Source: a virus
Strand: one strand, 5' to 3'
DNA: 40,605 nucleotides
IMG/VR virus record: IMGVR_UViG_3300044731_000338
Coordinates: 1 to 40,605 of that record
Below the pieces are notes generated by a model. That model had not been told where the DNA came from, ran no database searches, and was given only the letters and a program-made list of their open reading frames with translations. Both the position numbers and the translations under genes were made by a program. Below are positions 22,464 through 40,147 of the stretch, in pieces (the stretch's first letter is position 1; the number at the start of each line of letters is the position of its first letter).

Positions 22464-23110
22464 GGAGCCACGTTCTCCCTAAACACAAAAGGACCGTCCC
22501 AGTTCACAAAAGCACCATTGGTCATTGGAGTCAGAGTGTAAGTCGGGCACTGCTCCGCGTACACAGGAAAACTCACCGCAGAGCCAACAGCTGTCAGAGT
22601 ACCAGTAGAAGGAACGCCGATTACAGGACGGTGGATAGTAGCGTTCACAGTGGCCGCGCCGCCCCTTAGAACGTCCGCAGTGACCTTATAAACGTAAGAC
22701 CCTAGTTGGATGAAGTCTCCAGCCGCCAGGACGACTACAGAGCTTCCTACAGCGGGTAAGTTTCCAATAGAGATCGTCGTTGCGTTAGCCGCAGGCACAG
22801 AAGCCAGAGTCAGCGCCGCCGCCTGGGCACCAGATAGGCCACCGCGATAAGCAGTAAACCAAGAAAGATTGCTGCTAGAAAAAGTGATGTTTGCAGCAGT
22901 TTGACGGTCAAGGTTGTCAATCGTCTGAATAACATCTCGGACCTGTGGGTAGTACAGATAGTTATGCGGGACGATGGTGAACACCCAAGGCACTGCTGTC
23001 AGGTACTGAGCAGTTCTAATCTGTCCGCCTCTAGAGACTTGTTGTCCTACAGTACGCCGGTTATTCACAGTCATTGACTGCTGAATATCGACTATCGATT
23101 GAAACGACAT
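22460..23110 (-). CDS. Distal tail / minor tail protein
   Basis: This 216-residue protein starts MSFQSIVDIQQSMTVNNRRT and is beta-rich throughout, with VPWVFTIVPHNYLYYPQVRD at about 40-59 and VVVLAAGDFIQLGSYVYKV at about 125-143. It lies directly after the tape measure gene and shares the TAATG-type one-base overlap with it. This is where distal tail (Dit)-like or minor tail proteins sit in siphoviruses. Sequence alone does not identify it. Confidence 0.65.
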   Translation of the reverse strand: MSFQSIVDIQQSMTVNNRRTVGQQVSRGGQIRTAQYLTAVPWVFTIVPHNYLYYPQVRDVIQTIDNLDRQTAANITFSSSNLSWFTAYRGGLSGAQAAALTLASVPAANATTISIGNLPAVGSSVVVLAAGDFIQLGSYVYKVTADVLRGGAATVNATIHRPVIGVPSTGTLTAVGSAVSFPVYAEQCPTYTLTPMTNGAFVNWDGPFVFRENVAP

Positions 23111-25539
23111 TATGCGCGTCCTCTTCCAATGGCAAGAGACTTGTTAGCGTAGGCATTAGCCGCCCACACCGCTGTACTACTTCCCATGATCCTATCCTCA
23201 AAACTTTTTACGTCAATCGCTTGAATGTTGTAGTTGTTAATAACCTGGGAACCACCAACAGAGGATAGAGCGTTATTGGGAACAATAGTCCCAGATGTGC
23301 GAGGCACAAACATCTCTGGTCCCTTCTCTCCAACCATGTAGGAAGTCCCCGCGCTAACAGCGCCTCCAGAAGCGCGAGGAATAAGCCCAGAACCTCCTGT
23401 AATGGTTCCGCCACTGGCCGACCCAAATGAGAATCCCATAGACCTCAAGAAAGAGTTGAACAGCATCGTTGCCGAGGCTTTCAACTGAATCATGATCAAA
23501 TCTTGGATGATCGACCTAGCCAAGTCTTTGAACGATAGCTTTCCAGTGCGGACAAAGTTCTCGAGTGCCTTTTCCATGTTCCCAAACACTGCATCGTAGA
23601 CACGCTGGGTGGCCTTCAAAGAGTCCTGCATAGAGATGAACATCTCTTGCATACCTTGGTTCCTTCGAGCCTGGGAGATCAATAGATCGCGCTTCTCAGG
23701 GCTGAGATCAGGATTAGCCATGATCTCTGCGATCTTTCTCTGAGTTTCCAACTCCAGCATGGCAATCTGAAGTGCTTTGTCAGAGGCTCCGATCAGAGAA
23801 CCTTTGAGTTGCAGTTTCTGCATTTCGTACTCAAGGCTTTCCTTTTCTACTTGACCCGTCTGAACTAACTGGTTGTAAATCTGATCCCTGCGAGATTGCT
23901 CTTGAGCAAGATCATTCATGGCCTCATCAGCAAGTTTCTGACGGTCAGCCATTTCATCTGCGTAACGCTTTCTTGCAAGGTCACGTAATTGCTTTTGCTT
24001 ATCCTGCTCAATTTGAATTAACTGTTGAGAAAGTAGTTTTGCATTTTGCTCAACAAATACATCAGCTTCTGCTTGGTTCTTTTTTGCCATTTCGTTTCTG
24101 GCAAGGAATATCTTTTCTTGAGCGTTTAACTCAATAGTCATCATGTCATTCGCAGTCATCCTACGAAGATCATATTGATTCTTGACTATTGCTTGATCAA
24201 TCTCAAAAGCAAGCTGTCGGCGCTTTTCGCCAAACTTAACCTCATCGTTGATTGCTTGCGTATCCTGTTGTGATTTCTTTGCTGCTTCTTCACCGGCTTG
24301 CATCTTGTCAAGAATTGCTTGACGTTTGGATACAAACTCCTGAAAGCTCTGCAATAGTTTCCCGTAGTAAACAGAGTCAGGATTGGCTTTATTAAGTTGA
24401 TTTGCCGCAGCAGTGATGAACTGGTTTATCTGATCCAGTTGCTCTTCAAGTGTTTGTGGCCGCCCTATATTAAGAAGAGCATTCCAAGCCGCACTAGCCG
24501 CGTTCTTAAGTTTCGTCCACGCGCCCTCAAGCGTTCCCACTTGGCGCTCTTGGTCTTGAAGTTTCTTATACAGCGCATCAGCAGCAACCTTGGCCGCTTC
24601 TTGAGCCTTGCCTTGCTTATCAAGCAGAACAATGTGCTTGTATTGCTCAAGCGTAAGGAAATTCATCCTGTCATTGAGCGACTTGATAGAGGACGCGCCG
24701 CCATCAAAAGCAGGGATTAATTTTTGTGCAACCTCAGTAGCAGTTTCACCAGACAACTTGGTGACGTTAGCAATAGCCTGGGCGACAGAACCTAGAGATT
24801 GATCTGTGAACTTCCCAGACTTGACCAACTCCATCAAGATGTCTTTGGTTTTGCCAATAGACAAGTTGGTCTTTGTGCTGACCGTATCGGCCAGATCAAG
24901 GAAGGTCTTTTGAGTCAGGTTGGCGTAATTGCCTGTCAGGATCAACTGATCTCTGAGTTCTGCTGCGTCTCTAGCGCCTTGATAAAACGCAACTCCTAGT
25001 ACACCAAATCCCGCAGCAAGCCCTGTGATCGCCACCTTCATCGGCGTGATCATCGCTGCCAGGGCTTTGAACATATTGCCTATGCCGCCGAACTGATCCT
25101 TCAACTGACCACCCTGCTGAAGCAGAGCGATCATGGCGTTTTGTCCTGATGCGATCTGAGTTACAAGGTCGGTAGTTTGGTAGGTGATAGCAAGTTTCTG
25201 CTGCTCAGACAGAACCCCCATCGTCCGCTTGCCTGCCGCAGACACTTCATCGTAAGCCTTAGCCTGGGCAAGAAGCTGTTGCTGAAGAGCAGGAGCCGCG
25301 TTCTTGAATCTACCTGCGGCAATCTCACGCTCAATCTGCGTTACCTTGGAAACCTCTTTGCCGTAGTCCTCAGTGGCGTATTTAAGAGCAACAATCTCTT
25401 TAGCCGCAGCATTAGATTCCCGAGTAATGGCCGCCTTGAGATTTCTAGTCTCAGCAATAGCCTTGTCAACGTCAGCAGTAAATGACGCAGTATCAAGACC
25501 AAGAACGACACCAAGTCGAGCAATGTTGCTGGATGCCAT
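23110..25539 (-). CDS. Tape measure protein
   Basis: This 809-residue protein starts with helices DTASFTADVDKAIAETRNL and a region with AMIALLQQGGQLKDQFGGIG. A hydrophobic stretch (MITPMKVAITGLAAGFGVLG) follows, then a very long coiled coil. The end is Gly-rich, with ASGGAVSAGTSYMVGEKGPE near the C-terminus. This is the usual layout of siphovirus tape measures, which set tail length and enter the host envelope. The size corresponds to a tail of moderate length. One-base TAATG overlaps link it to both neighbours. Confidence 0.93.
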   Translation of the reverse strand: MASSNIARLGVVLGLDTASFTADVDKAIAETRNLKAAITRESNAAAKEIVALKYATEDYGKEVSKVTQIEREIAAGRFKNAAPALQQQLLAQAKAYDEVSAAGKRTMGVLSEQQKLAITYQTTDLVTQIASGQNAMIALLQQGGQLKDQFGGIGNMFKALAAMITPMKVAITGLAAGFGVLGVAFYQGARDAAELRDQLILTGNYANLTQKTFLDLADTVSTKTNLSIGKTKDILMELVKSGKFTDQSLGSVAQAIANVTKLSGETATEVAQKLIPAFDGGASSIKSLNDRMNFLTLEQYKHIVLLDKQGKAQEAAKVAADALYKKLQDQERQVGTLEGAWTKLKNAASAAWNALLNIGRPQTLEEQLDQINQFITAAANQLNKANPDSVYYGKLLQSFQEFVSKRQAILDKMQAGEEAAKKSQQDTQAINDEVKFGEKRRQLAFEIDQAIVKNQYDLRRMTANDMMTIELNAQEKIFLARNEMAKKNQAEADVFVEQNAKLLSQQLIQIEQDKQKQLRDLARKRYADEMADRQKLADEAMNDLAQEQSRRDQIYNQLVQTGQVEKESLEYEMQKLQLKGSLIGASDKALQIAMLELETQRKIAEIMANPDLSPEKRDLLISQARRNQGMQEMFISMQDSLKATQRVYDAVFGNMEKALENFVRTGKLSFKDLARSIIQDLIMIQLKASATMLFNSFLRSMGFSFGSASGGTITGGSGLIPRASGGAVSAGTSYMVGEKGPEMFVPRTSGTIVPNNALSSVGGSQVINNYNIQAIDVKSFEDRIMGSSTAVWAANAYANKSLAIGRGRA

Positions 25540-28658: not shown

Positions 28659-29002
28659 CAGACTGCCGTTACAGGATCATTGCGGAAGCACATCAACCGG
28701 ACATGCTGCCTGCTGTTGTCTGACTTTGCGTCTTCAATCCGCCAAGAATCTCCATCATAGGTGATGGAATAGTTACCTGGGTCTTCAACGATGGTTCTGG
28801 CGTTTGGAGAGTAGTTAATCTCAAACTCAGTAATATCGTGATAGTCACGATACTTGTCTGAAATCTTGATTGCACTGTTGACTTCGTGAATCTTTGCTCG
28901 AGTCTTGAACCATAAAGTCTGCGTTACGCCTTGCTCACCAAATGCCGACTTGGTGAAGGAAAGCGTATTGATGCTGATAGTTTCAAAACGAACGATAGTC
29001 AT
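28658..29002 (-). CDS. Head-tail joining (head closure) protein
   Basis: This 114-residue, beta-rich protein contains TQTLWFKTRAKIHEV, then FEINYSPNARTIVEDPGNYS and DGDSWRIEDAKSD. The strand order and place between the gp6-like connector and the tail terminator fit a stopper/head-closure protein. It would close the portal channel and receive the tail. There is no strong motif; identification rests on gene order and general fold pattern. Confidence 0.65.
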   Translation of the reverse strand: MTIVRFETISINTLSFTKSAFGEQGVTQTLWFKTRAKIHEVNSAIKISDKYRDYHDITEFEINYSPNARTIVEDPGNYSITYDGDSWRIEDAKSDNSRQHVRLMCFRNDPVTAV

Positions 29003-29622
29003 TAAAGTACAAGTGATTTATAGGGCCTGAGCAAAGAAGAGACTCCGAACGGAATCTCCCGAATGATCTTCTCAGTAGTGTTTGACCTGTTGTTGTACAG
29101 GTGCATCAGCATCAGAAGACTTGCCTGCTGCACAACAGGATAGTTCGCTAGGTGACTCGCATCTACGGTGTATTCACAATAGACCGGGCTAGTTCTTCCG
29201 GTGTTCAGGTCAGTCGGCAGAGTTGCAACAACTACCTTGTTACCCGAATCATCGTAGTAATAACCATTGCTTGCTACTGTTTGCAGCGTGTTTGAGGCAT
29301 CCCAGTACTTCACCGCATCCACGGTAACAGACTGCGACACCTCGGGCAGATCAAGCGTCAGCGGAGTCCCTGAGAGACTTCCTGCGTTGTAGTAGACCCG
29401 GTACTGGCAAGGAAACATCGATTGACCGATGTAGTCCTCAATGACCATTCGTGAAGCCAACTCCAACCCATACAGAAGATCGTCCTGGGACGTATCACCG
29501 TACAGGTTAAGTTGGTCAGCAACAGTGGTCAAAGGAATCCAAGTGGTCGAGACATCCCGACCAATCTGCTCAACCTTTTGATAGTTGAACGGATTTCGAT
29601 TCCCGCCAGTTTGGTATTCCAT
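29002..29622 (-). CDS. Head-tail connector, gp6-like
   Basis: This 206-residue protein has helical ends and a middle of strands. The N-terminal part includes LLYGLELASRMVIEDYIGQ, and the end includes VQQASLLMLMHLYNNRSNTTEK and IPFGVSSLLRPYKSL. That pattern (helix then HLYNNR...PFGV..LLRPY) is typical of the HK97 gp6 / SPP1 gp15 adaptor family, which binds the portal. One-base TAATG overlap with the short capsid paralog. Confidence 0.85.
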   Translation of the reverse strand: MEYQTGGNRNPFNYQKVEQIGRDVSTTWIPLTTVADQLNLYGDTSQDDLLYGLELASRMVIEDYIGQSMFPCQYRVYYNAGSLSGTPLTLDLPEVSQSVTVDAVKYWDASNTLQTVASNGYYYDDSGNKVVVATLPTDLNTGRTSPVYCEYTVDASHLANYPVVQQASLLMLMHLYNNRSNTTEKIIREIPFGVSSLLRPYKSLVL

Positions 29623-30626
29623 TACGCACTCATCCGAACGCCAGCAAACGGATCACGCACCGTGGAGACAACCTTCTTCTCCGCGTACATCGTAATGAAA
29701 CCTGGGGCGCTTTGTTCCATCATCTGCACTGAGAACTCGTTGGAGTCGCCAATACACAGGAACCGAGGCCAGTTGGCTAGGTAAATCGGGAATGCGGCTG
29801 ACAGGTAAGGATTAGGAATAACAGGCCAGCCAAAAATCCGACCAACAGCACCACCGTCATCTTCACCTACCTCCAGCAGGACAGGAAGACCCTGCAAGTC
29901 TTTCATCTCGCGCAGAGACTCAATCATTGAAGGCCGGATGTGCCATGCAGTCCCAGGCATAGCCCAGTACTGTCCTGGCAGGCGAGTCGTCAAGGCAGCG
30001 ATGTCGTTGTAGACAACACCACCAGCAGTCTGTGCTTGGGTGGACAGGGAGTGAATGCCGTTCGTTATGGCCGTTCCAGACGTTCCAAAAGCCGCCGTAG
30101 CAGCACTGGTATACATATCCAGCCCACGTAGCCCAGCAGTGGCTCCTGTGGCCGTTGTGGTCGATCCTGCTTGATCGTTGTTGACTGCCATCGACGCGGC
30201 TTCCACCTGACTCCACTCCATCATCAGGTCTTCAACCAGAGCCGCCTCAAGAGCGTTTACATCGCTCAACACAGCAGACCGGATAGGGAGGGTGGCCGAT
30301 ACAGACCGAACAGGAAGTTGCCAAATACTGGTATCCACGTTAGGACTACCAGCATTGGAACCTGGGGTGTAGCCCCAAGGGGTTGAACTCAGCGCATTGC
30401 CTACCTTAGCGGCAAACAAAGCATCTGAGCCCACAATTGGAAGGGGCCGGTATGCCATCCGGAAAGGATTGACATACCGGGCCGCTGCAAAAGCATCATC
30501 GAAAGTCGTCCGTCCACCTTTTCCGGTGCCAGAACCAGTAAGTGCCGAGGCTTCAGAGATGTCAATCTTGACCTTCCGTTGCTCATGGATTGATTTCTTG
30601 ATTCCGTCTAGGACTTTTTCGATCAT
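29622..30626 (-). CDS. Second major capsid-like protein, without scaffold domain
   Basis: This 334-residue HK97-fold protein is a clear paralog of the capsid protein just upstream. Shared blocks include EASALT.G.GKGGRT, LPIRSAVLSDVNALEAALVE, MAVNNDQAG, GLRGLDMYTSAA and APGFITMYAEKKVVSTVRDP. Its shared part begins at about residue 25, against about 99 in the other, so it lacks the long N-terminal delta (scaffold) domain. It may be a minor capsid, vertex or assembly-modulating subunit. The ATG at 30626 follows AAAGGAAA; a hairpin lies in the leader. Confidence 0.8.
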   Translation of the reverse strand: MIEKVLDGIKKSIHEQRKVKIDISEASALTGSGTGKGGRTTFDDAFAAARYVNPFRMAYRPLPIVGSDALFAAKVGNALSSTPWGYTPGSNAGSPNVDTSIWQLPVRSVSATLPIRSAVLSDVNALEAALVEDLMMEWSQVEAASMAVNNDQAGSTTTATGATAGLRGLDMYTSAATAAFGTSGTAITNGIHSLSTQAQTAGGVVYNDIAALTTRLPGQYWAMPGTAWHIRPSMIESLREMKDLQGLPVLLEVGEDDGGAVGRIFGWPVIPNPYLSAAFPIYLANWPRFLCIGDSNEFSVQMMEQSAPGFITMYAEKKVVSTVRDPFAGVRMSA

Positions 30627-30642
30627 GGCTTTTCCTTTTAAC

Positions 30643-30658
30643 GGGGGCCTAAGCCCCC
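30643..30658 (-). promoter_or_regulatory. GC-rich hairpin between the two capsid genes
   Basis: GGGGGC (30643-30648) and GCCCCC (30653-30658) form a perfect 6-bp GC stem with a 4-nt loop inside the 38-nt gap between the capsid genes. On the minus-strand mRNA it is followed by AAAAGGAAA, the ribosome site of the second gene. There is no T-run, so it may tune mRNA stability or translation ratio. Confidence 0.5.
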
Positions 30659-30664
30659 TTCCCA

Positions 30665-31996
30665 TTAGGCCGCTGCGGTGGCAGTCGAGCGATAACGGAT
30701 CAGTGCGTTGGGATCGCGCACCGAGGTTCCCAGACGCTTCTCACCGAAGAATGTGATGAAGCCAGGAGCAGTCTGGTCGTAGCGACGAACCACCATGCTC
30801 AGACGATCAATGATGGTATGGGACTTCTGCCAATCGCCGAAGTACATCGGGTAGCGAGAAGCAGTACCTGCGGCAGCGGTCGTCGGCTGGCTCGGGTTGT
30901 CGAGGTACTTGTTAACCACCACATCAAAGCCCAGCAACTGACCCACGATACCGTCAACGCTCAGACCTTCATTACGATTGAAGATCGGTGCGCCTTGGGT
31001 ATCACGCAGAGCGCGAATGCCGTTCAGCAGGATCGGGTTGACCATGATCTTGCAAGCAGGAGTCCAGTATTCCTGAGGCAGTGCGTAGATCATGTTGATG
31101 ACGTCGGTATAGATGACGCTGTTAGCGCCAACCGTATTGACGTTGGAGGTCAACTGGTCGTAGGTAGCAAGGTTATGCAGACCAGAGGTCGAACCCGTAC
31201 CGGACGTACCGAAACTTGCTGCCGAGGTTGTGCCACCAGCGTAGGTAGCATTCGCACCAGCGTACTGATCCAGACCGCGCAGACCGTCAGCACCACCAGT
31301 GGTCACCGAGGTGCCAGTGCCGCTTTGGTCGTTGTTCTGCACCATCGACTGAGCTTCAGCCTGGGCGAACTCCATCAGCATGTCGTCAACGACAACCGCT
31401 TCCAGACCATCGATGTCGTCCAATGCGGAGGTTCTGATGGGGAATTGGACGTTGATGTCCTTCAGCACGATTTGCCAAATGGTCGTATCTTCCGTAGTGG
31501 AAGCGCCGTTGTTCTGGATGCCGTAGCCCCACTGAACGCCAGCGTTGCCGGTCTTCACGCGGAACTGATAGGACGAACCATCAGTCGTCACCGTGCGAGA
31601 CAGGCCGCGCATGGGGTTAGCCAGACGCAGCGCAGCGAACACCGGGTCATAAGCGGTACGACCACCCTTGCCATCACCACCAGCGGTCAGCGCAGATGCT
31701 TCCTTCAGGTAGGCATTCATCTGCTCTTCGCTCTGGAACATCACCAGTTCTTTTTCAAACTGGCTCTTGCCATTCGCGATGGTCTTCAGTTGCTCACGCA
31801 CATGACGGTTCACATCCTGGCGAATCGTCTTGGCAGGAGCCTTGATGATGCCGGGGGCCTGAACGGAGGCGACCTTAGCTTCCAGCGCAGCAATCTTCTC
31901 GCTGACTTCAGCCTTCACCGACTCAACGGCGCTTTCGAGCTTGGCGGTTTGCTGGGCTTCGATCTGATCCAGCTTTTCGAGGATAACGGTAGACAT
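30665..31996 (-). CDS. Major capsid protein, HK97 type with N-terminal scaffold domain
   Basis: This 443-residue protein has an N-terminal coiled coil (about residues 1-90, with QIEAQQTAKLESAVESVKAE) as in the HK97 delta domain, which the neighbouring protease would remove. The capsid fold follows from about residue 99. Typical blocks include GLRGLDQYAG, IVGQLLGFDVVVNKYL and APGFITFFGEKRLGTSVRD. ATG 31996 is chosen over TTG 32002, because AAAGG fits it. It follows the protease gene by 2 nt. Confidence 0.92.
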   Translation of the reverse strand: MSTVILEKLDQIEAQQTAKLESAVESVKAEVSEKIAALEAKVASVQAPGIIKAPAKTIRQDVNRHVREQLKTIANGKSQFEKELVMFQSEEQMNAYLKEASALTAGGDGKGGRTAYDPVFAALRLANPMRGLSRTVTTDGSSYQFRVKTGNAGVQWGYGIQNNGASTTEDTTIWQIVLKDINVQFPIRTSALDDIDGLEAVVVDDMLMEFAQAEAQSMVQNNDQSGTGTSVTTGGADGLRGLDQYAGANATYAGGTTSAASFGTSGTGSTSGLHNLATYDQLTSNVNTVGANSVIYTDVINMIYALPQEYWTPACKIMVNPILLNGIRALRDTQGAPIFNRNEGLSVDGIVGQLLGFDVVVNKYLDNPSQPTTAAAGTASRYPMYFGDWQKSHTIIDRLSMVVRRYDQTAPGFITFFGEKRLGTSVRDPNALIRYRSTATAAA

Positions 31997-31998
31997 CT

Positions 31999-32787
31999 TC
32001 AACCTTTCAGTTTTTGGGACAGGACGCGGAGCAACTCACGCTCTTCAAGAGCCTGGAGGATTTCCGCTTCATTGGTCACTTCCGCGTCAGACTCACTCTG
32101 GTGCGGCGCAGTAAGCTCCTCTTTCACAGCATCACGCTGCTCCAAGACTTGCTTAAAAGTAGACGCGGCAGTGACCGCATCTTTTCGGGATAGCCCTGCC
32201 TCACGCAGAGCCGACTCCAGAACCTTGAGATCAGCAGAACCGTCAGGCCGGAAGAACTCCAGCTTCTTGACTTCTGCCATCGGGTTATTCGGATACATCA
32301 CTACGGACACCTCCCGCAAACCACCGTTGGTGATCTGGAAGTACCCTTCGCCCATGTCGTCTTGATTGCACATGGACCCGTCTTCTTTGACCATGCAGTA
32401 TTCGTCTGCATAGGCACCAACAGACACGCCACCAAACATATTGGGGCTTTCGGTCATGATCTGATACAGGTCAGAGCCACTGGTGGTGTTGACGAACAAC
32501 CTGCCACTAGCGTTCATGCCCTCATCATCGAACTCAAAGTTTGTCCACTCACCAACAGGCATACTGTCGCTGTTGTGATTCAGGAACATAGGCAAAGGCT
32601 TGCCCATCTTCTGGAACTCTTGGGCCCAGGCAGAAAAGCCTTCAGGACGGTAGTAAAACTTACGACCGTCCGCGCCCTCGCGGGCTCCCCACGTAGTGAC
32701 GCGGGCTTCAATCTTTCCGGTCTGCTCCTCGGACTTTTTTTCCGGCAGGTTTAGACTTGCTTCGCAGACCAGTTGGACTTGCTTCAT
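31999..32787 (-). CDS. Prohead protease, HK97 U35 type
   Basis: This is a 262-residue protein. MFLNHNSDSMPVGEW (His71), a strand FEFDDEGMNASGRLF, then GGVSVGAYADE (Ser122), and a domain with REVSVVMYPNNPMAEVK match the U35 caseinolytic-type prohead protease fold. It would cleave the capsid delta domain during maturation. A long charged C-terminal tail (from about 205) may be self-cleaved. It is upstream of the capsid gene with a TTAGGGG ribosome site. Confidence 0.9.
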   Translation of the reverse strand: MKQVQLVCEASLNLPEKKSEEQTGKIEARVTTWGAREGADGRKFYYRPEGFSAWAQEFQKMGKPLPMFLNHNSDSMPVGEWTNFEFDDEGMNASGRLFVNTTSGSDLYQIMTESPNMFGGVSVGAYADEYCMVKEDGSMCNQDDMGEGYFQITNGGLREVSVVMYPNNPMAEVKKLEFFRPDGSADLKVLESALREAGLSRKDAVTAASTFKQVLEQRDAVKEELTAPHQSESDAEVTNEAEILQALEERELLRVLSQKLKG

Positions 32788-32909: not shown

Positions 32910-33275
32910 TTACATCATTGCCAACAATATGGCAAATTCTTCGTCATGTAGATTTTTAGTAGATGATGTAATCGCAAGTCCTACACCCGACGCCAAATTA
33001 TTGCCATACACCACGCATTCTGCATCTACTCCAATTGACCCGATTGCAGATGGTTTACCAATATTTGCCTTTACTTTGACAGGCTGAACGTAGACGCTTG
33101 CATCTTGTTGTTCTTCCTTTTTCTTGGGCTTGTTATAAGGTTCAATGAACCTATAAGAGCCGCCGCCACCTTGAGGAGGAGCAGGAGGCTCTTCCTGCCC
33201 ACCGAAAAGCAAGCCTGAAAATAGCGCTCCACCAAGAAGACCGTTTCTAAGCAGCATCGATGATAGGCGTCCCAT
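32910..33275 (-). CDS. Head-module protein with hydrophobic N-terminus
   Basis: This 121-residue protein starts MGRLSSMLLRNGLLGGALFS, a Gly-rich hydrophobic segment that may be membrane-inserting or packed in the particle. A Pro/Gly hinge (PPAPPQGGGG) follows, then a basic middle (NKPKKKEEQQ) and a beta-rich C-terminal half. It overlaps the preceding gene by 29 nt. It lies within the cassette between portal and protease. The function is not recognised; a virion part or internal protein is possible. Confidence 0.5.
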   Translation of the reverse strand: MGRLSSMLLRNGLLGGALFSGLLFGGQEEPPAPPQGGGGSYRFIEPYNKPKKKEEQQDASVYVQPVKVKANIGKPSAIGSIGVDAECVVYGNNLASGVGLAITSSTKNLHDEEFAILLAMM

Positions 33276-34116
33276 TGCCCTGCGCGTCTGGGCTAAAGGT
33301 AATTCTCGGCGTGACTCCGTCTTGACCAAGATATTCTTCTGTGCCCGAGCCAAGCCCAGAACGGGCACCAGCAAGCGCAGCTAGAACTACGCGCATGATC
33401 TCCTCTGCCGTGAGCGTCTCAAGAGGCGTTGACCATACCTCGGCAGCAATCGTGGCAGGGCTGGCTCCACCTCCAGCGCTATTCAAAAGTTCCCCCATGC
33501 TGCCTGGAGTGTTGTAAACACTAGCTAGTGATTCCCAAACGGCGGCAGACAGCGATTGCGGACTCAACTCTGTAAAGGGTGTGATATTCCCAGATAGATT
33601 GCCCGTGGCTCGAGGTGTTGCGCTGGCCGTGAACTGCACCAGAGTAGTTCCAATGGCATCAACGATGGCCCCAAGCGTGGCGTTGTTGACCGTAAACGAG
33701 AAGGACGTACTGCCAGATGCGGACAGGGCACCAGCCAAGTTGGCTGCAAGGCTAAACGTGATGGACGTTGAACCTGACGCCGAGACGATCAGTTGCCCAT
33801 CTGCCGGGTTGACAGTAATCGTGACCGTCGAGTCGCCGCTGATGTTGACGCCCGCCGCGAGGTTCAGCGTACCCGGCGTGACCGTCACCACGCACTGCGT
33901 GAACGACGACATCGCCCCCGGCTTGTACGGCAGCACCCACGACGATGGAGCCAAGTGCCCGCTGGGGATGCCCGCCAGCTTGGACGGAATGCCCTCGCCC
34001 ACGGACTGGTTCATCCGGTCACCACGCCCCCACATGCTGCGGAAAGTTCCAGGCGAGCCGCCGATCTGGCGCAACGGAAGCTGCGCCAGGAGCGTGGTGT
34101 TTGTCTTGAGAGCCAT
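33247..34116 (-). CDS. Head-cassette virion protein with Ig-like/beta stretch
   Basis: This 289-residue protein starts MALKTNTTLLAQLPLRQIGG and has a repetitive beta-rich central region (SASGSTSITFSLAANLAGAL, then SASGSTSFSFTV, a near-repeat). The C-terminal AAEVWSTPLETLTAEEIMR with DGVTPRITFSPDAQGNGTP is seen in many phage structural proteins. The gene lies in the GC-rich cassette between portal and protease. It may decorate the head surface. The upstream in-frame extension is rejected. Confidence 0.6.
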   Translation of the reverse strand: MALKTNTTLLAQLPLRQIGGSPGTFRSMWGRGDRMNQSVGEGIPSKLAGIPSGHLAPSSWVLPYKPGAMSSFTQCVVTVTPGTLNLAAGVNISGDSTVTITVNPADGQLIVSASGSTSITFSLAANLAGALSASGSTSFSFTVNNATLGAIVDAIGTTLVQFTASATPRATGNLSGNITPFTELSPQSLSAAVWESLASVYNTPGSMGELLNSAGGGASPATIAAEVWSTPLETLTAEEIMRVVLAALAGARSGLGSGTEEYLGQDGVTPRITFSPDAQGNGTPIIDAA

Positions 34117-34124
34117 GAGCCCGA

Positions 34125-35003
34125 TCAACCCCAGCCGACCTCGACCGCGCCGTAGAAGTTGGTGCTTGCCGCCGTGGCCGCGCCCGCGAAGTAGAGCCAC
34201 GTGAGGCAGGCACCGTCCATCACCCGAGGAAGGCTCGGCAGTTGGTTCAGCAAATCACGCTCGGCAGCGACGGACACGGTGGTCAGCGGCAGCGTGAGCA
34301 GCGGGCGGGCAAGGCACAGCGCACCGGTGCCGGTGTTGGCAGCAGAGAACGTAACCGTCGCCACCGTGGACACGCCCGTGTCGCCCGAGGCCAAAGGAAG
34401 GAATGGGCCGTAGTTGTTGGCCGCCGTGCCGCTGTGACTGATGTGCCCCACGATGCCGGAAGCCGTCATGGCGACCGTGACCGGCAGGCTGCGCCCCGAA
34501 GTCGGCACCGTGTTGCTGTAGCTCAGCGCAATGTTCTGCGCCGTGGCGCCCGCTGCAGCGGTTTGCACCCAGAACAACCTGCACCCGGCCCCTTTGGTGT
34601 AGCGCAGAGTGGGCGTGCCCGTGAGGGTTTGTGCCGTGGCGCTGTTATTGCTGATACCGGGCCAGTAGCCCTGCAAGTCCACCAGCATCAACTGTGCCGG
34701 GACACCCGTGGCAACGGAGGTGATGGCGCTGACGTTCAGGACGTGCTTCGTGTCAGGCGAGACATTCCCGCCATGCGGCAGGCCGAAGATCTGCGTGCCG
34801 TTGCCGGTGGTTTCGTCGCAAGTTCTCCACGCCAGCGCAGTGCCCGCAAAGGCGTTGGCGACAGGCGTTCCGGCCAGTCCGCTGAAGTCATACCAACGGC
34901 CTGCGGTGTAGGCTGAACCGCCCGTGAGTTTGTTCCAGTCGGCGCGGTTGAACTTGCCGCTTGTGATCTCGTTGACGAGATCGTCCATTGAACTGAATGG
35001 CAT
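34125..35003 (-). CDS. Head-cassette virion protein, paralog A
   Basis: This 292-residue protein starts MPFSSMDDLVNEITSGKFNR. It has the same overall plan as the protein encoded just upstream: a short helical start (MPF.S...V), a domain with YTKGAGCRLFWVQT against YTDGEGVRMLMMMQT, GPFLPLASGDTGVSTV against GPFFPLADGDRGVRSV, and LPRVMDGACLTWLY against LPRILDGAFLNYIY. It is probably a beta-rich surface protein of the particle. Its ribosome site is AAGGAATC. Confidence 0.65.
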   Translation of the reverse strand: MPFSSMDDLVNEITSGKFNRADWNKLTGGSAYTAGRWYDFSGLAGTPVANAFAGTALAWRTCDETTGNGTQIFGLPHGGNVSPDTKHVLNVSAITSVATGVPAQLMLVDLQGYWPGISNNSATAQTLTGTPTLRYTKGAGCRLFWVQTAAAGATAQNIALSYSNTVPTSGRSLPVTVAMTASGIVGHISHSGTAANNYGPFLPLASGDTGVSTVATVTFSAANTGTGALCLARPLLTLPLTTVSVAAERDLLNQLPSLPRVMDGACLTWLYFAGAATAASTNFYGAVEVGWG

Positions 35004-36479: not shown

Positions 36480-36878
36480 TTAGCCTATGCTAAACCAATG
36501 TGTTGGGTAGGAAACGGAAAATTTACCGTTGATGCTCTTTGTTGCATTTGGAAAAGCAAACACAGCAACAGCACGATTTTCCTTGCTTGCGTTATACACA
36601 AGACAGCCTTGGGCCTGAATGCTGCAATTCTCCATAACCACATCAGCGAACTTGACCGCGACACCGTGCTGCGTAGGAGTTAACTGCATGTCCTTTAGGA
36701 CTACTCCACCGGGCGCATAACCCTGACCAGAGCATTCTCCCATAGGATCATAGGCTTTTGTGTCTTTGTTTAGCTTCGCACCTGTCTTATAAAGTGCCAT
36801 GCGGTATTCGTCCTTTGATGAATGAACTCCATCCATCAATTCCATGATGAAACTTCTGCAAGTAGCAGAGTTAATCAT
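36480..36878 (-). CDS. Head-module protein, decoration-like
   Basis: This 132-residue protein (ATG 36878, overlapping the portal stop by 8 nt) contains FIMELMDGVHSSKDEYRMAL. The block SGQGYAPGGVVLKDMQ and ADVVMENCSIQAQGCLVYNA follow, then RAVAVFAFPN. Such short beta-sandwich proteins are encoded beside portal genes in several phages. The role may be capsid decoration or stabilisation. It is the first gene after the portal. Confidence 0.6.
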   Translation of the reverse strand: MINSATCRSFIMELMDGVHSSKDEYRMALYKTGAKLNKDTKAYDPMGECSGQGYAPGGVVLKDMQLTPTQHGVAVKFADVVMENCSIQAQGCLVYNASKENRAVAVFAFPNATKSINGKFSVSYPTHWFSIG

Positions 36879-38445
36879 GCTCGAAGGTCTCCGCACCAAC
36901 AACCACACCATCCTCGTTGCGGATCAGTTTGATCGTCTTGGGTTTTGACGGCTTATCCTCTTGCTTCAGGTTCATCTTGATCTCCATCGGCTCACTTTTC
37001 ACAGTGATGTTGGGATTCATCGTGAACTCTGGTTGAAGAGCAATAACCTGTTCCGTAGAACCGATGTTCATCCTAGACCGCTGATTTCCGCCGCCGCCTC
37101 CAGTGTCTTGAGGGCTTGAGCCTGGGATGGTTTCGTCCTTCTTGTCCTGAACCAACTCATCGCCGCCTTCGATGTTGGACATTCCGAGGTATTCCCGAGC
37201 TTCGTTAGGCGTCAGGATGCCACCAGTGACACCAGCCTTGGCGAAGTTCATCTGATCCAGCGGAGCGCCCTTCAGAAAGTTCCGGGTGTCAAACTCGATG
37301 CAAAGGCTAGGGTACTGGGACAGCAGATGCTGCTTCAGCTTCTGTTGGATGTTGACAATGATCGGATAGATAGCCGACTTGTAATACTCATCCAGCATGG
37401 TCTGAGTATTGTTGTACTTGGACTCTCCAATTCCGATCATGGACGGAGGCACACCAAAGATGCCGCAAATCCGCTTCATCGTTTGGAGCTTCAACTCTCG
37501 CGCATCAGCGTCCTGAAGAGTCAGCATCTCTAGCGGCATGTACTTCATGCCTTGATCAAGCAACATGCCCTGACCCGGCTTGGAAGCATCAGTCTTTTGG
37601 GAGCCTGTCATGTTCGCCCAGGCTTCCTTCAGCCGAGCAGCTATTTCCTTGTACTTGCCATCAGGGATAACCGACTCGGTTACGAACATGCCCGACGGTT
37701 TAGCCCCGTTGAGCATGACGTAGTTAGCGTACAGGTCGATGTCTTGATCAAGGGAGACAAGTTCCGTCGCCAGGATGCCTTTGTTAAAGCCAGCAGAGCC
37801 TTGCCACGCCATGTCCTTCATGTGCATGACCTGATGCGAGGCCAGAGGTTCATCCTTAGAAAACCCATACGAAGGAGTAGACAACCTGTAGGACGGATAC
37901 CGCGTAGGAGTGACCTGAACAGCAATCAGAGTGCTGTCCAAGATGTACATCTCAATCGGAGTCTGGCTAGGATTGCCTTGATCCTTTCTCCACCACAGAG
38001 TAAAGGCTTCGCCAGACAACTCATGCCACATCAACCACTGATACCAGAACTCATACTGACTTTGGAAGGCATTAGGGTTCTGAATCAGGTTCATCACCTG
38101 AATTGCTTTGGCCTTATTGCGCTCAGAAACACCTTCGCCTTCAATAGCGTCAACGTACTTTCCATCCTCAGTGCGGCACATCACCCGCAGCGGAAGTTGA
38201 GCAATAGACCGAGCTTTAGCACCAATACATGACATAACCGTCGAATTTCTCGACAGCATGGACATATCAACAACTCGACCAGCATCATTGACAGAACTGG
38301 TCGTTACATACAGCAGTTGGCTGTTTACGACCGAGCCTTGCTTAGTCGCGCCATAGGTGATCTGGTTGCCTAGGGCGGTTTGCCCGAACAACGTATTGGC
38401 TTCTTTTGCCGATGTTTTCTTACGAAATACGTCGAAAATGCCCAT
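36871..38445 (-). CDS. Portal protein, HK97 family
   Basis: This 524-residue protein has the portal pattern. After a variable N-terminus come VVDMSMLSRNSTVMSCIGAK and IAQLPLRVMCR. The block QWLMWHELSGEAFTLWWRK follows, then LYANYVMLNGAKPSGMFVTE, a stem with RICGIFGVPPSMIGIGESKY and a C-terminal tail rich in Gly and charged residues. Twelve copies form the ring through which DNA enters and to which the tail joins. It follows the terminase gene by 22 nt. Confidence 0.93.
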   Translation of the reverse strand: MGIFDVFRKKTSAKEANTLFGQTALGNQITYGATKQGSVVNSQLLYVTTSSVNDAGRVVDMSMLSRNSTVMSCIGAKARSIAQLPLRVMCRTEDGKYVDAIEGEGVSERNKAKAIQVMNLIQNPNAFQSQYEFWYQWLMWHELSGEAFTLWWRKDQGNPSQTPIEMYILDSTLIAVQVTPTRYPSYRLSTPSYGFSKDEPLASHQVMHMKDMAWQGSAGFNKGILATELVSLDQDIDLYANYVMLNGAKPSGMFVTESVIPDGKYKEIAARLKEAWANMTGSQKTDASKPGQGMLLDQGMKYMPLEMLTLQDADARELKLQTMKRICGIFGVPPSMIGIGESKYNNTQTMLDEYYKSAIYPIIVNIQQKLKQHLLSQYPSLCIEFDTRNFLKGAPLDQMNFAKAGVTGGILTPNEAREYLGMSNIEGGDELVQDKKDETIPGSSPQDTGGGGGNQRSRMNIGSTEQVIALQPEFTMNPNITVKSEPMEIKMNLKQEDKPSKPKTIKLIRNEDGVVVGAETFEHD

Positions 38446-38467: not shown

Positions 38468-40147
38468 TTACCACTCTAATGATCTAAAACCAAATGAATC
38501 AGATACAAATACGTTATCTAGGTGGCCGTGGACTGCCATGATCATGGCGATGATACCGTCAACCTTAGCGGATGGGTCCGCTTCGTTCTTCCTAACCTTG
38601 ATGTTGTCGTTTACATCTTTGTAGACTTCGCAGTTTCCTAACTGCCAACCGACAAAAGGATTGCCATCGTGGTTAATAGCCTTCTTCATAATCAACTCTT
38701 CTGTGGCCTTACTTGGGCTTGACAGCATTGCCATGCCCTGGCCGACCTTGACTACAGGAAGTCCGTCCGCGTACAAGTTAGCGACCAGATTAGCCGCGTT
38801 GTACGGGTCATAGTTGATCTGTTTCACCTCATACTTTTCACATAGGTTGCGGATATATTTCTCGATTTCCCCGTGGTCGGTGACGTTACCCGGAGTGAAC
38901 TTGAGAATCCCACTAGCCGCAGCCTGTAGGTAGGTAGGTCGGTAGTGATTTGGAACGAGGTCAAGCGAGTCTTCCGGCAGGAAGAACTGAAACTCCGCAA
39001 AGAACCTCTCTTCAGAATACCTGTGTAACGTGCAAATTGCGTTGAGGTCTCGGGAGTGCGCCAAGTCAAAAGCCACAAAGGTGGACTCTGGTTTATCAGT
39101 TGGTTTGGCGGATACGGATGCATCCCAGAACCGGCGATCCACCCAAGCAGCGTTTGCAGAGACGTATACATTCAACTGCTTGCAGAGGAACTCGTTGAGG
39201 CTTGCAGGCTTTGCTGATGCCTCATCTGCCATATGCTGGATGTGATCAGTAGACACCGAAATCCCGAGCATTGGATTGGCCTTCGCCCAGGTCTTTTGGT
39301 CTTGCCAGTTGTCTCCAGCATCGATGGAGTACAGGAGCCCAAACCACCGCCCATTGTCTTCCGCAGCACCCCGAAGGACCGTCCTGAAGTAGTTGAGGTC
39401 TTCATAGAACTTGGTTTCCTTAGTGAAGCTGGCAGTCGTCAGATATATCCGAAGAGGATTCTTCCGAGCACCCATGCCCGAATGAAGAACCTCAATAGAC
39501 GCTCTCTCAGTGATCTGTGCCGCTTCATCTACCATCGCGCAAGATGGGTTCTTGCCGTCGCCTGTTTTCCTATTCTCGCGGGACAGGGCTCGGTAGGTGG
39601 AAGTCGAGTCGCCCTGCTTCTTAATCTCGTTCCTGTAGACCAGATACTTCGCGGCCAGATTGGGGTCCATAGACTCCACAATCGCCTTGGATGAGTCAAA
39701 GCAGATGGATGCCTGTTCCCGGCTCGTAGCGAGCGTAAATACTTCAGCGCCAGCATCACCAAACATCAACTCATACAGAGCAATGATCGACGCAATCGTC
39801 GTCTTGCCTGACTTTCGAGGCACATACAGGATTACGTCCGTCACCCAACGCTTACTGTGATCTGACTTGGCTCGAAAGCCATACAGGCCACAGAGGAACA
39901 TGACCTGAAACGGCTGAAGCTCAATCGGCTTCCCAGCATCCGGCCCCTTAACGTGGTTGCAGAACTTGACGAACTTGAGGATGTGCTCCGCTTTGGCAGG
40001 CACAAACTCATACGGAGCATCCTTGCGTTCCGCCATGTCGAGGAAACGCTGGCAGGCTAGTTGTACGTCCTCGCAAGCCTGGATGTCGCCTCGGGTTACT
40101 CCTGCTGCGTATTGGAATGCAGGTTCAAGCAGGCTGGAAGAGTTCAT
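38468..40147 (-). CDS. terL: Terminase large subunit
   Basis: This 559-residue motor has a Walker A at about 109-117 (VPRKSGKTT), a Walker B at about 203-210 (CAMVDEAA) and a nuclease domain with Asp361 in FVAFDLAHSRDLNAI. It is the HK97-type terminase large subunit, which cuts and pumps DNA into the prohead. It overlaps the small subunit by 23 nt, and ATG 40147 is the start. Confidence 0.95.
   Translation of the reverse strand: MNSSSLLEPAFQYAAGVTRGDIQACEDVQLACQRFLDMAERKDAPYEFVPAKAEHILKFVKFCNHVKGPDAGKPIELQPFQVMFLCGLYGFRAKSDHSKRWVTDVILYVPRKSGKTTIASIIALYELMFGDAGAEVFTLATSREQASICFDSSKAIVESMDPNLAAKYLVYRNEIKKQGDSTSTYRALSRENRKTGDGKNPSCAMVDEAAQITERASIEVLHSGMGARKNPLRIYLTTASFTKETKFYEDLNYFRTVLRGAAEDNGRWFGLLYSIDAGDNWQDQKTWAKANPMLGISVSTDHIQHMADEASAKPASLNEFLCKQLNVYVSANAAWVDRRFWDASVSAKPTDKPESTFVAFDLAHSRDLNAICTLHRYSEERFFAEFQFFLPEDSLDLVPNHYRPTYLQAAASGILKFTPGNVTDHGEIEKYIRNLCEKYEVKQINYDPYNAANLVANLYADGLPVVKVGQGMAMLSSPSKATEELIMKKAINHDGNPFVGWQLGNCEVYKDVNDNIKVRKNEADPSAKVDGIIAMIMAVHGHLDNVFVSDSFGFRSLEW

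Follow-up and report, generated by a model that had tools for sequence, protein, structure and literature searches.

A delta-less paralogue of the major capsid protein as a candidate penton protein in a family of freshwater phages with genomes near 40 kb

Introduction

It is assumed that phages with genomes near 40 kb, having little genome space to spare, form both the hexamers and the pentamers of their heads with a single protein; a separate penton protein is described as rare and T4-like, and small phages usually lack one (PMC13185644). In HK97 and RcGTA one capsid gene gives both kinds of ring. The window analysed here, a phage sequence of 40,605 nucleotides, carries two capsid genes side by side, and the question is what the second protein would do. 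We examined the anatomy of the two proteins, the history and distribution of the gene pair, and the spacer between the genes.

Results and Discussion

Two capsid genes and their surroundings

Both proteins, here called MCP1 and MCP2, score above the cut-off of 24.2 bits for PF05065 (Phage_capsid; 109.8 bits for MCP1 and 52.0 for MCP2), and they are 38% identical over 341 aligned positions (BLASTP, E 1e-72). MCP1 also matches PHROG 10, major head protein (E 6e-32). A preliminary description of this DNA had reported two tandem paralogous HK97-fold capsid genes, and the pair was found where that description had placed it (Table 1); the minus strand and the hairpin between the genes had not been mentioned. 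For MCP2, an alternative ATG at 30665 is open in frame and would give a protein of 347 aa whose reading frame crosses the hairpin; the start of the 334-aa form is the one used by relatives.

Table 1. Positions of the features discussed, numbered along the window
Feature	Position	Strand	Basis or remark
Terminase large subunit	38468..40147	-	PF20441 E 2e-42, PF03354 E 1e-23
Portal protein	36871..38445	-	PF04860 E 6e-59
Prohead protease (peptidase S78)	31999..32787	-	PF04586 E 1.6e-8
MCP1, full-length HK97-fold major capsid protein with delta domain, 443 aa	30665..31996	-	PF05065 E 2.1e-31
Helical delta (scaffold-like) region at the MCP1 N-terminus (residues 1-96), none in MCP2	31709..31996	-	alignment and model secondary structure
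MCP1-only loop 1, A-domain half, residues 248-256	31229..31255	-	joint alignment of 79+79 sequences
MCP1-only loop 2, A-domain half, residues 282-289	31130..31153	-	joint alignment of 79+79 sequences
MCP1-only loop 3, A-domain half, residues 367-379	30860..30898	-	joint alignment of 79+79 sequences
Hairpin GGGGGC-TTAG-GCCCCC in the spacer from the MCP1 stop to the MCP2 start	30643..30658	-	local form of the family-wide hairpin
MCP2, delta-less MCP paralogue, 334 aa	29622..30626	-	PF05065 E 8.4e-14
Head-tail adaptor, directly 3' of MCP2	29002..29622	-	PHROG 40 head-tail adaptor Ad1 E 5e-11
Tape-measure protein	23110-25539		among tail genes past the head-tail adaptor

The genes run in the order terminase, portal, several other genes, protease, MCP1, MCP2, head-tail adaptor and tail genes. 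HK97 gp5 and the RcGTA capsid protein resemble MCP1 in fold, in having a delta-type N-terminal region and in the protease-MCP gene order, and the delta region of MCP1 is the expected target of the prohead protease. Four single-MCP outgroup phages (Bcep176, Azospirillum Cd, VW-6S and RHph_X2_25) have the order terminase-portal-protease-MCP, then small genes and, where annotated, the adaptor; no second MCP was found after the MCP in any of the four. Therefore, set against these outgroups, MCP2 appears as an additional gene inserted directly after the MCP. In the gap between portal and protease, positions 33247-34200 of the minus strand hold a 317-aa open reading frame whose match to an Ig-like family is weak (Big_9, E 0.009, under the cut-off); its product could be a decoration or surface protein.

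The MCP2 gene is flanked by MCP1 and the head-tail adaptor and shares an expression segment with the neck genes. On this basis its protein might occupy a single special site, such as the surroundings of the portal vertex, where it would link shell and neck. However, what gene order shows is co-expression, and a full HK97 fold suits a position in the lattice. We also know of no HK97-fold portal-ring protein derived from an MCP paralogue, and we consider such a restricted placement improbable.

Distribution of the gene pair

A tblastn search with MCP2 of 50,697 phage records matched one phage, the cultured Methylophilaceae phage P19250A (KX815270), a siphovirus of the freshwater LD28 clade (PMC8163748). 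Its MCP1 and MCP2 genes are adjacent, in the same gene order and with a hairpin between them, and the proteins are 57% (MCP1) and 49-52% (MCP2) identical to those of the window; the portal proteins are 70% identical. The P19250A annotation names the first gene 'gene transfer agent capsid protein' and MCP2 'hypothetical protein'. Relatives are far more numerous in IMG/VR, with at least 590 for MCP2 (590 of the 600 pattern matches examined) and at least 523 for MCP1 (523 of 600). MCP1 is followed by MCP2 in 177 of 187 loci, a set that includes the window and P19250A, contains some loci on the same contig and comes from scans that give the closest relatives first; the remaining 10 end at a contig edge within or beside the pair. 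Among these 187 closest-first loci, no complete family member was found to lack either gene. Seven matches were obtained in MAG contigs, five of them long enough to judge, and all five carry both genes with a hairpin between them. The plasmid collection yielded no relatives of either protein. The two-MCP phages form a large freshwater family with genomes of roughly 40 kb, and we found no earlier description of its tandem or duplicated HK97 capsid genes among the open-access papers searched.

Two members deserve separate mention. In one locus (L156:3998-5347) MCP1 is split into two open frames and MCP2 is intact, owing either to an error in sequencing or to a genuine break. The other member, L193 (JAHEYD010000010.1), is a 38.9-kb phage contig that was binned in an archaeal (Nitrosotalea) MAG; because its MCP1 clusters with the P19250A protein, the contig was probably mis-binned.

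Origin of MCP2 and selection on the pair

In a maximum-likelihood tree of 52 proteins with the four single-MCP outgroups, MCP1 and MCP2 together form one clade against the outgroups (support 100/100), within which all MCP2 sequences group together (100/100) behind a stem 1.41 changes per site in length; where exactly the root falls between MCP1 and MCP2 is uncertain, given the long outgroup branches. This topology fits one old duplication before the family radiated, with fast change and a shift of role in MCP2 and subsequent constraint. Horizontal acquisition of MCP2 from another phage was considered and rejected, as its nearest kin is MCP1.

T4 also has a paralogous pair, and a common origin with T4 gp24 has to be weighed. 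There was no T4-like record among the tblastn matches to MCP2 in the 50,697 phage records and no T4 chain among the best 50 Foldseek matches of MCP2 in the PDB. By fold, RcGTA and HK97 come nearest among solved structures, so the duplication was probably independent of that in T4; the position of MCP1 as nearest kin likewise argues that MCP2 probably has a separate origin.

Comparison of 582 close pairs gave a median dN/dS of 0.12 (MCP1) and 0.11 (MCP2), and both proteins are under strong and similar purifying selection. The preliminary description had reasoned that loss of fold-critical residues in relatives would speak against a structural role for one of the two proteins; MCP2 is instead strongly conserved and has the HK97 fold. 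A place for MCP2 outside the virion, either as a decaying duplicate or as a protein with another intracellular job, is very improbable, given a dN/dS of about 0.11 that equals that of MCP1, its presence in every complete locus and its intact HK97 fold.

Anatomy of the two proteins

The most conspicuous difference lies at the N-terminus. MCP1 has approximately 96 additional residues with predicted long helices (H2-44, H58-75 and H90-105), in agreement with the earlier proposal that only the first protein has the delta-type helical region, whereas the model of MCP2 has a single short helix (H2-15) ahead of the N-arm. In the joint alignment of 79 sequences of each paralogue, MCP2 starts about 74 residues later than MCP1, that is, with a shortened N-terminal region. 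We also asked whether the MCP2 N-terminus derives from the initial portion of the MCP1 delta region, left over after an internal deletion. The segments EKILDGIK and EKLDAIEA are alike by eye, yet the top 14-residue matches reached a score of 16.0, compared with 14.6 in shuffled sequences, with scattered offsets, and the idea is unsupported.

Alignment and structure prediction, which the preliminary description had proposed for both proteins, indicate that MCP2 retains the N-arm, E-loop, spine helix, P-domain and A-domain of the HK97 fold, with domain borders placed by secondary structure and by the order of elements known for HK97 rather than by coordinates. The single-chain models have a pLDDT of 71.6 (moderate) for MCP2 and 57.9 (low confidence) for MCP1. 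By Foldseek, the MCP2 model matches RcGTA 6tb9 (E 1e-15) and HK97 8fqk (E 2e-14), and HK97 and RcGTA chains in general with E values of 1e-12 to 1e-15 and TM scores of 0.5-0.6 by query. MCP1, on its weaker model, matches the same structures, the RcGTA capsid 6tb9 best (E 7e-14). Against predicted viral proteins, the best 50 matches of MCP2 include proteins named major capsid protein, the two best being family-like with 36-38% identity, and none of these 50 is named a vertex protein; this comparison gives no indication of position. With these elements intact, MCP2 should fit into an HK97 lattice. Foldseek ranks for HK97 chain G (penton) against chains A-F were tried as a means of placing MCP2 and set aside, since MCP1 has the same preference; both paralogues resemble the penton chain and the hexon chains to about the same degree, and comparison of monomers therefore does not pick the vertex.

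The A-domain half of an HK97-fold protein packs around the capsomer centre. In the joint alignment, the three internal segments that only MCP1 has, in addition to its delta region, all fall in this half (Table 1), and the N-arm is the best-kept region, with 15 of the 16 positions conserved in both paralogues identical. An almost unchanged N-arm and an intact fold mean that contacts to neighbouring capsomers could be shared, as they would be in a mixed lattice in which MCP2 sits within hexamers, at chosen or random positions, and tunes stability or curvature instead of filling vertices. We regard this arrangement as unlikely, because the A-domain loops that meet at the capsomer centre differ systematically, which speaks against the sharing of one capsomer, and because the solved precedents, T4 gp24 and SaPIbov5 Ccm, are found only in pentamers.

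A hairpin between the two genes

A G+C-rich hairpin is present in all 82 distinct MCP1-MCP2 spacers of ordinary length, and 63 of these have a T-run, defined as at least 5 T within the 8 bases after the hairpin. Control regions gave far fewer hairpins, 8 of 95 in the 70 nt upstream of MCP1 and 19 of 110 in the 70 nt around the MCP2 stop, and no T-run hairpins in either. Thirty-four versions with a tetraloop show compensatory (double) changes at 8 of 9 pairs, although these 34 were picked for a tetraloop hairpin, which favours the percentage paired and makes the pair counts lean likewise somewhat. Their covariation score of 0.563 compares with 0.281 for shuffled alignments (none of 500 as high) and is far above that of slid registers. 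From stem and T-run, the hairpin would be an intrinsic terminator or attenuator in most members of the family. The form in the window has a weak T-run at best; it seems to have lost this element and may act weakly or differently.

The median distance from the stem to the MCP2 ATG is 24 nt, which leaves little room for a promoter between hairpin and MCP2. A covarying hairpin at this place, mostly with a T-run, suggests that MCP2 is made at a lower level than MCP1, and expression of MCP2 is probably the lower of the two. However, several unrelated single-MCP phages also have a hairpin directly after the MCP, so the hairpin by itself is no pointer to pentons; it is more naturally read as a general post-capsid attenuator that would keep MCP1 in excess and MCP2 on the low side. 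Ribosome-binding strength was also considered as a sign of stoichiometry; the median duplex energies of -3.8 kcal/mol for MCP1 and -4.2 kcal/mol for MCP2 are similar and uninformative.

Other elements were noted in individual loci. One contains another strong terminator-like hairpin at a later point of the head-tail operon (L014:7517-7540; 10 pairs, ATTTTTT tail), possibly a further attenuator after an abundant structural gene. In two others (L079:3456-3995, and L059 at the same position) a 179-aa open reading frame lies between hairpin and MCP2; its motif YTYIHF...PFYVGKGKG reads like that of a GIY-YIG homing endonuclease.

A proposed role for MCP2 at the vertices

To our knowledge, there are two solved cases of HK97-fold MCP paralogues with a shortened N-terminal region, T4 gp24 and SaPIbov5 Ccm, and both fill pentamers. 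T4 gp23 and gp24 resemble MCP1 and MCP2 in being HK97-fold paralogues that arose by duplication, the minor one with most of the cleaved N-terminal region gone; gp24 loses 10 N-terminal residues compared to 65 for gp23 (PMC9958956). The split between hexamers and pentamers is that of gp23 and gp24, and a like split is proposed for MCP1 and MCP2. T4 differs as a large myophage whose head is prolate and whose paralogues are about 20% identical; the two-MCP family, in contrast, has genomes near 40 kb, a capsid protein of the HK97/RcGTA type, and adjacent paralogues that are 38% identical with a hairpin between them. Ccm is, like MCP2, an MCP homologue with a shorter N-terminal region, starting at residue 88 compared to 129 for CP, and it occupies pentamers where phi12 CP makes hexamers (PMC8569155). 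Its authors suggest that the short N-arm explains the inability of Ccm to close a shell alone (PMC8569155). However, Ccm is encoded by a satellite and redirects the assembly of its helper, whose CP alone can make pentamers, whereas MCP1 and MCP2 are both the phage's own and always occur together.

Ccm, as a CP homologue with a shorter N-terminus, redirects assembly from prolate to isometric (PMC8569155), and MCP2 might in the same manner regulate head size or shape, possibly giving two head sizes. This is improbable for a gene that is the phage's own and never absent, with no second genome size or satellite seen, and Ccm itself acts by filling pentamers, so that the mechanism would partly be the same as that of a penton protein. 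Of the arrangements named in the preliminary description, namely a mixed lattice, a special vertex and a changed T-number, precedent and anatomy thus favour the vertex, and a change of T-number has no support here.

Taken together, it seems likely, with a probability of roughly 0.65, that MCP1 builds the hexamers and that MCP2 is a dedicated penton (vertex) protein. The intact fold, the missing delta region, the altered A-domain, the obligate pairing and the lower expected expression all fit this role. An ancestor of the family would have duplicated its HK97-type capsid gene. MCP1 would have retained the delta domain as a built-in scaffold and would form the hexamers, with 360 copies in a T=7 head, a geometry that we infer because the genome is near 40 kb (HK97 and P22 are cited as such, PMC13185644). 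MCP2, having lost the delta domain and the three A-domain loops, would have become the penton protein; we infer its presence in the shell, at the 11 non-portal vertices and in about 55 copies. The hairpin or terminator between the genes would cut MCP2 expression relative to MCP1, and such attenuation would suit a minor component of the shell.

A broader proposal, which we put forward tentatively and hold at somewhat less than even odds, is that a widespread siphophage lineage with genomes of about 40 kb came independently to build a shell with two obligatory proteins, one of them a delta-less penton protein. The hexon protein may then no longer form pentamers, and the vertices would be set by a separate, attenuated gene, possibly further modified by fused N-terminal domains in some members. 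Nine loci encode an MCP2 with an additional in-frame N-terminal domain of about 100-115 aa (L068:3674-4996, L080:3671-5005, L070, L098, L099, L102, L103, L106 and L124), and MCP2 of L011 carries a truncated remnant of it. The same domain (PHROG 2859) starts the large annotated major capsid proteins of Synechococcus phages S-CBS1 and S-CBS3 and of Roseobacter phage CRP-821.

Conclusions

A separate penton protein is of a known kind, that of T4; what appears to be new is an apparently independent and family-wide case in a lineage of siphophages with small genomes. If the proposed role is correct, the split between hexon and penton arose again in a small phage, in a large freshwater family that always carries both genes. 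P19250A would then be a compact cultured system in which to study how the choice between five-fold and six-fold rings is made and what the delta domain contributes to it, and hundreds of genes now listed as 'hypothetical protein' would gain a likely role.
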